Assembly: GCF_001647275.1 (NCBI RefSeq)
Contig: NZ_LRMM01000001.1
Location: 124,001 to 188,000 of the forward strand
DNA: 64,000 nt
Direction of reading: 5' to 3'
DNA from: Rufibacter ruber
Lineage (GTDB): Bacteria > Bacteroidota > Bacteroidia > Cytophagales > Hymenobacteraceae
Part shown: in pieces, positions 12,321 to 17,225 of the stretch
How the letters are laid out: every line of letters begins with the position of its first letter
Position numbering within the stretch: position 1 is the first letter of the stretch
Position numbers and translations under genes: made by a program
The notes under the pieces: generated by a model
Seen by the model: the letters and a program-made list of their open reading frames with translations, nothing else
Told to the model about the DNA's origin: nothing
Databases searched by the model: none

Positions 12321-13568
12321 CTAGGAAAGCTCCACGGCCTCATACTTTTTTACATTCTTAGGCGAGGCAAAGTCAGAAGACAAAGCTAAGATGAAGGCAC
12401 CCGCCTCTCTTATTTTATCCTGGTTGCGCAGCAGGCTCTCTAAGGTGACCATGCCTACCACAGAGTCAGAGTCGGCGGCGCTTTCAATAATGCGCTGGCG
12501 GTAGAAGTCCAGCGACTCCAGTAAGTTGGGGTCAGAGGTACGCAGGTACACCTCAATCTGAAAATCAAGCGCCAAAGCAGGCTCTGCCTGACGCTGCTGC
12601 AATTTCTTATAGCCGTAGCGGTACCCGTTGCTGATGGAGATAACATCAGACAGCACAGCCGCCCCGGTAGGGTGCCCTCCCGCGCCTTTGCCTTTGAAAA
12701 GCTGCGGGCCGGAGTAGCCACCCTGCACCACCACCCCATTAAACTCCTGTTCCACCATCTTCAGGTCGTCGGCGTCCCCTACTAAGCTTGGCAAGACCAG
12801 GGGCACAATCTCCCCTTCTGGTGTTAGGTGCACAGATGCCACTAACTTGATGGTACTGCCATTCTGCCGGGCAAACTCCAGATCACGGTTGCCTAGAGAG
12901 TCAATCCCGAAGAAAGCCACCTCCTGCGGTGCCAAAGTTCTGCCAAAAGCGTGCGCAGTGAGAATGCACAGCTTGTGGCGGGAGTCAGCCCCAGCCACGT
13001 CTAACCAGGGGTCCAGTTCGGCAAAGCCTTTGTCCTGCGCCTCTTTGAGGGCATCTGCGTACGGCTTCTGTTTCTGGAAAATCTGGCTTAATATATAATT
13101 TGAGGAGCCGTTGAGAATGCCATGCACGCGCTCCAGCGGTTCATTTGAAAAATATTCCTCAACGGTTCTTATGATGGGGATACCGCCGGCCACAGCCGCT
13201 TCATACAGCAAGACACCTCCAAACTGCTCCTGCAGTTCCAGCAATTCAGGCAGATGGTAGGCTACTAGTTTTTTGTTTGCGGTCACCACCCGCCTGCCCT
13301 TTCGCAAGGCGGCGGTCACTATGCCATAGGCTTCTGTGGCATCACTGATGGCCTCCACCAACAGGTCAAGCTGATCATCTGCCAACACTTCCTCCGGATT
13401 GAATGAGAACTCTTCTGCCGGTAACGGACGGACTTTAGCGGGATCTTTCACGCAGATCTTCTCAATCTGAAACGGCAAGTTCTTCTCCCGCGCCAGAATA
13501 TCATACAGCCCCTGCCCTACGCACCCAAACCCAAACAAGCCTATCTTTAGAATACGGTTGGAATCCAT
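12321..13568 (-). CDS. hom: Homoserine dehydrogenase
   Basis: Reduces aspartate semialdehyde to homoserine with NAD(P)H, the branch point for methionine and threonine. 415 residues. The Rossmann motif GFGCVGQG lies at residues 13-20, followed by the ANKKL catalytic-domain segment (~94-98) and the conserved GGIPIIR and LNGSSNYIL stretches of the substrate domain. It is monofunctional, with no aspartokinase fusion. Third gene of the metY-metX-hom operon; its ATG lies inside the end of metX (22-base overlap), which points to translational coupling. It is thus under the SAM-I riboswitch and leader ORF far upstream rather than with the threonine genes at 43-47 kb. Confidence 0.95.
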   Translation of the reverse strand: MDSNRILKIGLFGFGCVGQGLYDILAREKNLPFQIEKICVKDPAKVRPLPAEEFSFNPEEVLADDQLDLLVEAISDATEAYGIVTAALRKGRRVVTANKKLVAYHLPELLELQEQFGGVLLYEAAVAGGIPIIRTVEEYFSNEPLERVHGILNGSSNYILSQIFQKQKPYADALKEAQDKGFAELDPWLDVAGADSRHKLCILTAHAFGRTLAPQEVAFFGIDSLGNRDLEFARQNGSTIKLVASVHLTPEGEIVPLVLPSLVGDADDLKMVEQEFNGVVVQGGYSGPQLFKGKGAGGHPTGAAVLSDVISISNGYRYGYKKLQQRQAEPALALDFQIEVYLRTSDPNLLESLDFYRQRIIESAADSDSVVGMVTLESLLRNQDKIREAGAFILALSSDFASPKNVKKYEAVELS

Positions 13569-14602
13569 GTCTTTCTCTTTGGTTTTTTCTGTAAAAATGT
13601 CTCTAATATTTCCTGTAGCTGGGCAAACTCCAGCAAGAATCCATCATGTCCGTATTCTGAGCGCACCACCTCAAAGGTAGAGTTTGGGATGTGCCGGGCC
13701 ACCAGCCGCTGCTCAGTGAGCGGGAACAGCACATCTGAATCTACGCCAATGACCAAGGTCTCTGCCTGCACCTGCGCCAGCGCTTCTTCAACTGACCCTC
13801 TTTCCCTGCCCACGTTGTGGGAATCCATCATTTTGGTAAGGTGCCAATACGAGAAAGCATTGAAGCGTCTGGCCAGTTTCTCGCCCTGGTACTGCTGATA
13901 AGAAGCCGCCCTGAAATTGTCCAGCCTATTATTATGGGTCTCCCGCTGAGAACGGTTATATGCCTGGTAATTGCGGTAAGAGAGCAGGGCAACCGCCCGG
14001 GCAGTTTTCATTCCGTTCAAACCGGCATCATCTGTGTTCAACTGCCAGGTCACATCCTGCTCAATGGCCATACGCTGGCTCTCGTTAAACGCCACCCCCC
14101 ATGGGGTCTGGCGGGCGTTAGAAGCCACGTGCACCAGCTTGTTTACCAGTTCTGGGTTACTCACTGCCCACTCCAGCGCCTGCTGACCCCCCACCGAGCC
14201 ACCTACCAGCACGTCAATCTCCTCAATCTCCAGGTGTTCCCGCAGGTAGTTGAAGGCCCGTACCACATCACGGTTGGTCAAGGTGGGGAAAGTGTGGTAA
14301 TATGGCCTCCCTGTATCTGGGTTCAGGGAGAGCGGACCGGTAGAACCATAGCAACTGCCCAGGGTGTTGGCGCAGACAATAAAGTGCCTGGCCGGGTCAA
14401 AAATCTTGCCCTCGCCAAACAGGCCGCCCCACCAGTCATTGACAAAGGCATTGGCAGTTAAAGCATGGCATACCCAAACTACATTGCTTTTATCAGCATT
14501 CAGGGTGCCCCAGGTGGTGTAAAAAAGCTGGAAGCCGGGCAAAGATTGCCCAGACTCCAGTTGGAATTCATCATAAAAGGTAAAGACGCGTCCTTTCAGC
14601 AT
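13547..14602 (-). CDS. metX: Homoserine O-acetyltransferase
   Basis: Transfers acetyl from acetyl-CoA to homoserine for methionine synthesis. 351 residues, alpha/beta-hydrolase fold. The nucleophile elbow GGSVGGQQALEW has Ser136, the acid is in the VIGVDSDVLFPL segment, and the catalytic His is in SEYGHDGFLLE near the C-terminus. Pairing with metY (an acetylhomoserine user) supports acetyl rather than succinyl transfer, though single-residue specificity changes exist in this family. Nine bases separate it from metY, and it overlaps hom. Confidence 0.95.
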   Translation of the reverse strand: MLKGRVFTFYDEFQLESGQSLPGFQLFYTTWGTLNADKSNVVWVCHALTANAFVNDWWGGLFGEGKIFDPARHFIVCANTLGSCYGSTGPLSLNPDTGRPYYHTFPTLTNRDVVRAFNYLREHLEIEEIDVLVGGSVGGQQALEWAVSNPELVNKLVHVASNARQTPWGVAFNESQRMAIEQDVTWQLNTDDAGLNGMKTARAVALLSYRNYQAYNRSQRETHNNRLDNFRAASYQQYQGEKLARRFNAFSYWHLTKMMDSHNVGRERGSVEEALAQVQAETLVIGVDSDVLFPLTEQRLVARHIPNSTFEVVRSEYGHDGFLLEFAQLQEILETFLQKKPKRKTWIPTVF

Positions 14603-14611
14603 GGCAAGCTA

Positions 14612-15958
<1,347 letters not shown>

Positions 15959-15990: not shown

Positions 15991-16044
15991 CTAGGAAAAC
16001 TTACGCGTAGGCGCGTCTCCCCGCGGCAGCGCGGTAAGCCCTAG
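15991..16044 (-). promoter_or_regulatory. Hairpin region between leader ORF and metY
   Basis: On the minus strand an outer CTAGG/CCTAG pair and CTTACCGCG against CGCGTAAG (one bulge) form a long hairpin. An alternative, mutually exclusive CCGCG-CTGC-CGCGG hairpin lies in its 5' half. It starts 18 bases after the leader ORF stop and ends about 45 bases before metY. Two competing folds at this place fit an attenuation or ribosome-access switch; that role is inference. Confidence 0.5.
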
Positions 16045-16062: not shown

Positions 16063-16197
16063 TTAGCGACAACAGCAACAACAGTCCTGAATGGACATTC
16101 GCATTTCTGTTGGGCAGAAAGAAGGGGTGTAACCATGGAGCGTCACCAACGGGTGCGCCAAAGCATTGCTAGAAGTGGGTTGGATAGTAATTTCCAT
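16063..16197 (-). CDS. Poly-cysteine leader peptide ORF of the met operon
   Basis: 44-codon ORF: ATG at 16197-16195, stop TAA at 16065-16063. The protein begins MEITIQPTSSNALAHP, contains HGYTPSFCP, and ends SIQDCCCCCR: five consecutive Cys codons (16083-16069: TGT TGT TGC TGT TGT), one Arg, stop. It starts 8 bases after the end of the SAM-I riboswitch and ends 116 bases before metY. Cys runs at the end of a short ORF ahead of sulfur-metabolism genes are known as cysteine-responsive attenuators in mycobacteria; I know of no description in Bacteroidota. No Shine-Dalgarno site is visible; P1 of the riboswitch lies where the ribosome would bind, so SAM could control its translation. Confidence 0.6.
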   Translation of the reverse strand: MEITIQPTSSNALAHPLVTLHGYTPSFCPTEMRMSIQDCCCCCR

Positions 16198-16204
16198 CTT
16201 CGTA

Positions 16205-16320
16205 TCAATTTATATTCCCCAGGGCAATATGTCCGCTGGGATCAGGAATTAGCACCTTACCTCTTAGTAGGTTGCTAGAGCTTCATTGAGCCTGTCTCTC
16301 CGCTCTTCTTTATAAATCAA
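16205..16320 (-). promoter_or_regulatory. SAM-I riboswitch (S-box) upstream of metY
   Basis: 116-nt aptamer on the minus strand. P1 forms from UUGAUUUAUA and UAUAAAUUGA (10 pairs counting three at the end, two of them G-U). Then come the conserved GAGCGGAGAGAC, the kink-turn AAUGAAGC, GCAACC, the P3 pair ACCU/AGGU, the hallmark AAGGUGCUAAUUCC, and P4 CCCAG/CUGGG. All core S-box segments are present in order. No clear terminator follows directly. The next element is a leader ORF 8 nt after P1, so control may be on translation initiation or on the joint leader. Confidence 0.93.
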
Positions 16321-16346
16321 CTACCGGAATAATTGACTTGATACTG

Positions 16347-16377
16347 CAAATGTAAAGCCCGAAAGTTCATCTGCAAA
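16347..16377 (-). promoter_or_regulatory. Bacteroidota-type promoter of the met operon
   Basis: On the minus strand TTTG (-33), a 19-base spacer, and TACATTTG (-7, matches TAnnTTTG). The start of transcription should fall near 16340, about 20 bases before the riboswitch. Confidence 0.8.
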
Positions 16378-16599: not shown

Positions 16600-17225
16600 G
16601 TGGCGTTTGCTCCGGTGCCTCACTCACTGCATTGTTTCATCTTTTCCGGTAAGCGCTCACGGCCGCGGGGCCCCGTCCTGGCGGTGAGCACTGCTGTTAA
16701 AACTAGGCCCTCCGGCCTTGCCGCCGGTGCGGCACCGTATTAACAGAGGCGCTCACCCCCAGGACTGGTTTGGGTTCCTCTCCTGCTACTTCCTGTACTT
16801 GCTCTGTCTGTTCCAGTAGGTAACCGTTGCTGATCCGCTAGCCTGTGGCGAGTCCGTGCTGCGCACATCAGCCAGGGGCATGGGTGGTGGTGGATTGGCT
16901 ATGGCAGATTGAGTGGCAGATTCATAGCTGCTGCTGCTGCTGCTGCTGGCGCGAGTCTCCAGACTCGTGCCTAGTGATGATGGGTAGTCTCTGACTACCC
17001 TCGCTGCCGGGCAGCGACCATGCGCAGTGCTGGTTTACTCGTGCTGGAATGCCAGAGCGGAATAAATGACTCAGAACTTTAGACTCAAGACTCCTTTCGT
17101 TATTCCCCCTTTGAAGGGGGCGAAGGGGGATGTTGACACAGGAGGGCACGCATGCCAGAGGTACGGGGCATAGGCCTCACACATTCCGGATAGCTCCCCT
17201 CCTGGGAGGGGTTGGGGTGGGTTTC
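16600..17225 (+). repeat. Long mosaic intergenic repeat, family B copy 3
   Basis: Shares the G+C-rich core, the CCGCTAGCCTGTGGCGAG and GTGCTGCGCACATCAGCC segments, the GCGCGAGTCTCCAGACTCG hairpin and the final CCCCCTTTGAAGGGGG module with copy 1. It lacks the middle GGTTCAAGTT hairpins. Seven CTG triplets (16928-16948) stand at the join. It separates the divergent met operon and purC. Confidence 0.75.
16675..16765 (+). repeat. 91-nt structured core of family B, copy 3
   Basis: GTCCTGGCGGTGAGC against GCTCACCCCCAGGAC (one mismatch), CTGTTAA/TTAACAG, and an inner TCCGGC/GCCGGT hairpin. Confidence 0.85.

Follow-up and report, generated by a model that had tools for sequence, protein, structure and literature searches.

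A cysteine-ended leader ORF behind a SAM-I riboswitch in Rufibacter ruber and related Bacteroidota: a probable two-layer sulfur sensor in one mRNA leader

Analysis of a 64,000-nucleotide stretch of the Rufibacter ruber genome (NZ_LRMM01000001.1, positions 124,001 to 188,000; hereafter, the window) revealed a short leader ORF that ends in a run of Cys codons and is located between a SAM-I riboswitch and the metY gene. This arrangement is likely to represent a two-layer sulfur sensor within one mRNA leader, in which a gate responding to SAM would be followed by a gate responding to the translation of Cys and Met codons. A single RNA leader would then probably read the supply of both SAM and cysteine, and perhaps that of methionine too.

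The leader, the riboswitch elements ahead of it, and the genes behind it are all encoded by the minus strand of the window. The leader ORF (positions 16063..16197; 44 codons and a stop), which has counterparts at related loci, encodes a peptide of 44 residues, MEITIQPTSSNALAHPLVTLHGYTPSFCPTEMRMSIQDCCCCCR. According to the cmscan analysis, it is preceded by a match to RF00162 (16207..16318) with a score of 75.2 bits (E 8.3e-16) against a gathering threshold of 44.4, which identifies the aptamer as SAM-I. The initial annotation had described a 44-codon ORF with a terminal Cys run behind such a riboswitch, and both the translation and the RF00162 match bear this out; the gap between the end of the aptamer and the leader ATG (16197) is 9 nt instead of the 8 given there, whereas the distance of 116 nt from the leader stop (ending at 16063) to the metY ATG (15946) was given correctly. 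The five Cys codons (TGT TGT TGC TGT TGT, 16069..16083), which do mix TGT and TGC as had been noted, precede a single Arg codon and the stop. The Met-Arg-Met codons ATGCGAATG (16096..16104) form part of a Met-rich leader tail. NCBIfam contained no family for the two leaders queried.

The genes downstream of the leader are metY, encoding a PLP enzyme of Cys/Met metabolism (14612..15946; Pfam PF01053, Cys_Met_Meta_PP, E 4.8e-136), a metX-like gene encoding an alpha/beta hydrolase (13547..14602; PF00561), its name being taken from the context, and hom, encoding homoserine dehydrogenase (12321..13568; PF00742). These Pfam domains and their order fit the metY-metX-hom operon proposed initially.

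Several structural elements were observed around the leader ORF. A long hairpin can be folded between the leader stop and metY (15991..16044), with the closing arms CTAGG (16044-16040) and CCTAG (15995-15991). Folds of this region were taken from 11 of the 16 congeners; the hairpin was absent from the RNAalifold result on the genus alignment, and the arms were therefore compared by eye. In this uncounted comparison, the closing arms co-vary in several congeners, and other congeners fold otherwise. In addition, a small hairpin (GTCC-ATTCA-GGAC in the window, 16084-16096) is located directly before the Cys codons in the window and in congeners, and its paired bases vary within the genus as judged by eye. 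Further upstream, an intergenic region of the window (16927-16948) consists of a pure GCT/CTG triplet repeat, which two chance ORFs read as runs of Cys or Gln; this pure repeat contrasts with the mixed TGT/TGC run of the leader.

A protein search in 59 related genomes matched the ORF in several congeners. One match within the genus (L009) was rejected, being located elsewhere in its genome and not at metY; the metY leader of the same genome is L047. All 16 searched genomes of the window's genus have a Cys-ended ORF between the SAM-I aptamer and metY that begins at the same position, and the encoded peptides (11 + 5 loci, 16 genomes) begin with ME or MME and end in or near a Cys cluster. A second SAM-I aptamer is located upstream of metH, and none of the 10 genomes of the genus examined there, including that of the window, has a Cys ORF behind it. 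Since the Cys ORF recurs in 16/16 genomes of the genus and in many other genera and orders, its presence is not due to chance. Conservation was one of the points on which the initial annotation had made its reading depend, and the frame and the Cys run proved to be kept across genera and orders.

Codon changes were counted in 14 of the 16 congeners, which align without gaps. Pairwise changes in codons 2-16 numbered 37 synonymous vs. 499 non-synonymous; in the six codons before the stop they numbered 65 vs. 86, with the Cys codons nearly constant. These counts, together with the near constancy of the Cys codons, indicate that the start of the peptide evolves without protein-type constraint and that its tail is under such constraint. 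The HGYTPSFCP stretch, which had been put forward as possibly conserved, is not: in one congener it reads HGYTLSFCAT, and the central part of the peptide varies freely.

The distribution of the leader was analyzed in a set of 130 SAM-I sites from 59 genomes, 99 outside the window's genus and 31 inside it (further listed sites of the genus were omitted). A leader was called where ATG, GTG or TTG at +3 to +15 behind the aptamer opened a Cys-ended ORF. Genes were assigned to classes from sequence motifs, thirteen of the assignments being made by hand, and for several classes a single example was analyzed with Pfam. As a result, the leader was detected at 75 of the 130 sites. It is present at metY (41/42; 16 of the 42 sites belong to the window's genus), cysH encoding PAPS reductase (8/11), and sulfite reductase (3/3); it also occurs at permease (8/8), ATP-grasp (8/8), TonB receptor (4/5), and other genes (3/8), and was found at none of the metH (0/39), metB/C (0/5), and hom (0/1) sites of this set. 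The initial rationale, according to which MetY competes with cysteine synthesis for sulfide, is too narrow, as cysH, sulfite reductase, permease, ATP-grasp, and TonB receptor genes carry the leader too and metH does not. Start codons were ATG in 57 leaders, GTG in 17, and TTG in one. With ATG as the only start codon and starts allowed up to +100, an earlier count was lower for several classes (40/42 metY, 1/8 permease, and 3/7 cysH sites); widening the start codons to GTG and TTG gained zero metH sites. The combination of SAM-I and a Cys leader was also observed at RimK-like ATP-grasp genes (L167, L222, L224, and others), which are possibly sulfur-related.

A separate sample consisted of 80 named metY loci, chosen as the best among at least 591 matches. 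Of the 76 loci with a placed metY, 32 have an ORF with at least three Cys among its last 12 residues no more than 700 nt upstream. These 32 loci belong, as far as their names tell, to Cytophagales, Sphingobacteriales, Chitinophagales, Saprospirales, and one member of Flavobacteriaceae; the eight placed cyanobacterial loci have no Cys ORF. The ORFs of L086 and L089, counted among the 32, are located far upstream and look like chance occurrences. L127 (Balneola), also among the 32, resembled a Cys leader followed by a terminator; its aptamer was found downstream of the ORF, which likewise looks like a chance occurrence, and the locus was dropped. The Rfam scan detected SAM-I in 42 of the first 60 named loci, in 40 of them within 600 nt of metY. 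The leader start lies 3-15 nt behind the aptamer in 24 of these 40 (28 if two Cys are allowed); in the remaining 12 of the 40, no leader with two or more Cys is present at this position. Among the other 20 loci, SAM-I was detected in six, none with a Cys ORF behind the aptamer within 700 nt. In L104 (Chitinophagaceae), L065, and L105, a Cys ORF is located 310-383 nt behind the aptamer and upstream of metY. In these three leaders, which appear as a decoupled variant, the end of the ORF falls within or next to a small hairpin (GTATGCC/GGCATAC or a similar form).

The presence of the leader follows the kind of SAM-I site. Sites in which the 3' strand of P1 ends in TATAA were designated type B. 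Excluding metH and metB/C, 68 of 77 TATAA sites carry the leader, against 0/43 sites with GATRA or GATATC; of the sites fitting neither ending, 7/8 have it. Two metH sites with TATAA have no leader. Five type-B exceptions (L147, L188, L200, L301, L304) contain an ORF with no Cys run, and under relaxed criteria one or two terminal Cys are still seen in several exceptions, such as MKTRYCC in L218. In L272 (219 onward), a metX-like gene with no Cys leader starts at +11 nt behind a TATAAA-type P1, which indicates that a type-B platform can sit directly on a gene start; judging by this placement, the platform seems to gate the enzyme gene directly.

To the wider phylum, the search was extended with a sample of 148 genomes, in which 90 further sites were taken from the matches listed: the 30 best-scoring and 60 chosen by hand (42 from the same class, 5 from the same order, and 13 from other classes). 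Nine of the 90 sites have TATAA, and five of these nine (L259, L274, L280, L286, L299) have a leader with at least two Cys, three of them (L280, L286, L299) with at least three; of the other four, L272 has the metX-like gene at +11 described above, L301 and L304 have an ORF lacking Cys, and L305 has no leader ORF. The remaining 81 of the 90 sites, many of them metY sites outside the window's class, have no leader; in this sample, the device is thus restricted to that class. Across all data, the device is densest in the window's order.

In the window, P1 can be extended beyond the aptamer model. Its 5' strand GTTGATTTATA (16311..16321) pairs with the 3' strand TATAAATTGAT (16204..16214), which ends 6 nt from the leader ATG. 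Covariation was assessed over 67 of 68 type-B sites anchored on TATA, using 300 shuffles and slid controls. The outer pairs 3, 4, 5, and 7 are formed in 60, 61, 56, and 41 of the 67 sites, respectively, values unreached in any of the 300 shuffles, and the pair types include A-U, U-A, G-U, and G-C; these outer pairs covary. Pair 6 is formed in 48/67 sites, a value reached in two of the 300 shuffles, and pairs 8 to 10 gave nothing clear over the anchored sites. The shuffles ignore how the sites are related; the slid controls preserve this and were lower too (0.32-0.46 for pairs 3, 4, 5, and 7). The next start codon typically follows 12-14 nt after TATA, and P1 ends about 6 nt before the leader start.

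Upstream, a 5' hairpin (16314..16339; arms 16339-16330 and 16323-16314) overlaps by its 3' arm the 5' strand of the extended P1 and is a candidate for the SAM-free alternative to P1. Such a hairpin with a stem of at least 6 bp was found at 40 of 68 type-B sites vs. 19% in shuffles, the other 28 sites being without it; elsewhere it occurs at 26 of 132 sites, which equals the background, and it is specific to type B. The extended P1 and the 5' hairpin together suggest that SAM gates the leader start. In addition, the window contains a promoter-like box TACATTTG (16347..16354) ending 28 nt before the aptamer and matching TAnnTTTG, which we take to be the Bacteroidota -7 promoter box. The box was found at 61/88 type-B sites, where shuffles give 6.7, and there it mostly precedes the aptamer by 22-35 nt; it was also found at 64/131 other SAM-I sites (8.5 expected); being common at other sites too, it is not specific to type B. 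The reach of P1 almost to the leader start, the two kinds of SAM-I platform, and the in-frame enrichment of Met described below go beyond the initial annotation.

The median distance from the leader stop to the gene is 165 nt, and the SAM switch makes no other visible contact with the gene beyond the leader, which argues that translation of the leader matters. One way in which it could matter is translational coupling, where leader translation opens the gene or passes ribosomes on to it and the Cys run tunes the flow. The leader and the gene are presumably on one transcript, and a riboswitch-controlled leader with termination-reinitiation was reported for M. tuberculosis ppe2 (PMC11260477). 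Nevertheless, 165 nt is long for reinitiation, and pairing with the gene initiation region was not found for the leader tail, the post-stop stretch or the leader start (mean z 0.0, 0.3, and 0.06, respectively); we regard coupling as unlikely. Sequestration of the RBS by the leader likewise finds no support as a general mechanism, since no such pairing was found in 93 leaders. These pairing counts, as well as those for tail composition, C/G content, and terminators inside the leader, cover 93 of 108 leaders (15 congeners were dropped), and structure folds cover 92.

Somewhat less probable still is a classical trp-type transcription attenuator, in which pausing at Cys codons would toggle an antiterminator and an intrinsic terminator. 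A leader ORF with regulatory codons is shared with such systems, and the metY locus L109 (Saprospiraceae), which has no SAM-I match, does carry a Cys/Met-rich leader followed by a strong textbook intrinsic terminator. L109 is an exception: between leader and gene, terminator-like sites are no commoner than in shuffles (7/108 vs. 39/540), and neither are they inside the leader (7/93 vs. 22/279). The sensitivity of the scan is low, although gene ends in the window gave an excess (4/22 vs. 2/110 in shuffled sequences). The Cys codons can pair downstream in part of the genus (mean duplex z -2.04 over 16 loci), but this pairing is missing in some congeners and is not general (mean z -0.32). Downstream of the stop, the RNA is weakly structured (mean z -1.04; 18/92 below -2).

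The composition of the leader tail was analyzed in the 93 leaders. Cys, for which the leaders were selected, accounts for 32.8% of the last 15 residues and is the final residue in 61/93. Met, for which they were not selected, accounts for 7.9% of the last 15 residues vs. 1.2% of the head, and in an earlier overlapping set of 34 peptides for 10.0% vs. 0.9%. Within the last 15 codons, ATG occurs 110 times in frame vs. 18 times out of frame. Instead of sensing Met, these in-frame codons might be secondary starts of a short SAM-independent Cys reader, as the tail ATGs are in frame and often directly upstream of the Cys run; several tails have Met inside or after the run (CMCCCIQ, CCCCCMP), where a start would be of little use, and this explanation appears improbable to us. 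Cys clusters are common metal or redox ligands, and the run might sense redox state, a metal or the like via the nascent peptide. This seems very improbable, because the Cys residues are made last and would still be in the exit tunnel when the ribosome stops, and because Met enrichment and the association with sulfur genes fit codon supply better. That the run is a degenerate, functionless TGY triplet repeat of low complexity, in frame by accident, can practically be dismissed, since start position, frame, and proximity to the stop are kept at 60/70 sites, where the Cys-ended frame is that of the start codon, against two matches in the other frames (no start being required there), and since the metH sites of the same set have none; these frame and metH controls are strongly against it. 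Sensing of cysteine, proposed in the initial annotation and here taken to act through Cys-tRNA, is a candidate function that fits the data.

The two-layer sensor could operate as follows. With SAM bound, P1 would form, reach within about 6 nt of the leader start, and thereby mask the site of initiation. At low SAM, the 5' hairpin would capture the 5' strand of P1, and the leader would be translated. Shortage of Cys-tRNA, and possibly of Met-tRNA, would make the ribosome pause at the Cys and Met codons beside the stop, and the pause would promote the downstream sulfur gene. Because leader translation is the only visible output of SAM, an AND gate is proposed in which the gene would be expressed when SAM and cysteine are both low. 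As for the downstream link, the paused ribosome might cover a Rho-loading stretch directly after the stop, in a tnaC-like manner. This involvement of Rho is a guess and the weakest step of the scheme. The Rho signature is weak: C outnumbers G after the stop in 71/93 leaders (with 4 ties), but the effect is small and appears in other parts of the leader too.

Previously, Cys leaders without terminators were described in Actinobacteria in 2005, and a tna-like Rho model was proposed (PMC1262725). Those leaders resemble the present ones: both are short ORFs that precede sulfur genes (cys operons in the actinobacterial case), both have the Cys run close to the stop, and neither has a conserved intrinsic terminator (here, according to a scan of low sensitivity). 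They differ in that here a SAM-I aptamer lies ahead, the tails also contain Met, and the phylum and most of the genes are different. Mycobacterial Cys ORFs are described as starting leaderless (Canestrari et al. 2020), whereas the Rufibacter leader starts about 140 nt inside the predicted transcript. In Rhodobacterales, the uORFC-8-2 motif upstream of cysS is likewise a tandem-Cys uORF, interpreted as ribosome-mediated attenuation, but it has two Cys codons and ends in a U run that was taken for an intrinsic terminator, and the available text mentions no riboswitch (PMC8632094). In the B12 riboswitches of M. tuberculosis metE and ppe2, a riboswitch and a translated uORF also act together; the ligand is B12, and the part of the report consulted mentions no amino acid codon sensor (PMC11260477). 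The SAM-II riboswitch of Sinorhizobium meliloti metA likewise masks an initiation region, with its effect on a start located further downstream; it belongs to another class, and its accessible description mentions no Cys leader (PMC9373788). The aptamer itself is that of the S-box (SAM-I, RF00162). Unlike the usual SAM-I riboswitch, the apparent platform here is an extended P1 beside the leader start with a competing 5' hairpin and no detectable 3' terminator. Leader-peptide attenuation was suggested upstream of amino acid operons in a Flavobacterium transcriptome (PMC9723704) and, in Bacteroides thetaiotaomicron, for some 5' UTRs (PMC7366714), both organisms being Bacteroidota. In the open-licence full-text literature, as far as it was accessible, Cys leaders were found described neither behind SAM-I nor in Bacteroidota; the supplements of these two papers could list one.

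With slightly less than even confidence, a wider reading can be offered, namely, that these leaders make up an RNA regulon spread widely through one class of Bacteroidota. The output of the SAM riboswitch would then be translation of the leader, with no platform at the target gene, and the leader would read Cys-tRNA and Met-tRNA, so that three sulfur signals would act on genes of sulfate reduction, sulfhydrylation, and uptake. The finding predicts dozens of translated small ORFs. It also offers a test of leader pausing without visible intrinsic terminators, a question that the 2005 study left open for mycobacterial cys operons (PMC1262725). The arrangement would place a metabolite riboswitch and an amino acid leader peptide, which are usually apart, in series in one leader, and would show one way in which Bacteroidota could couple sulfur assimilation to SAM and cysteine.
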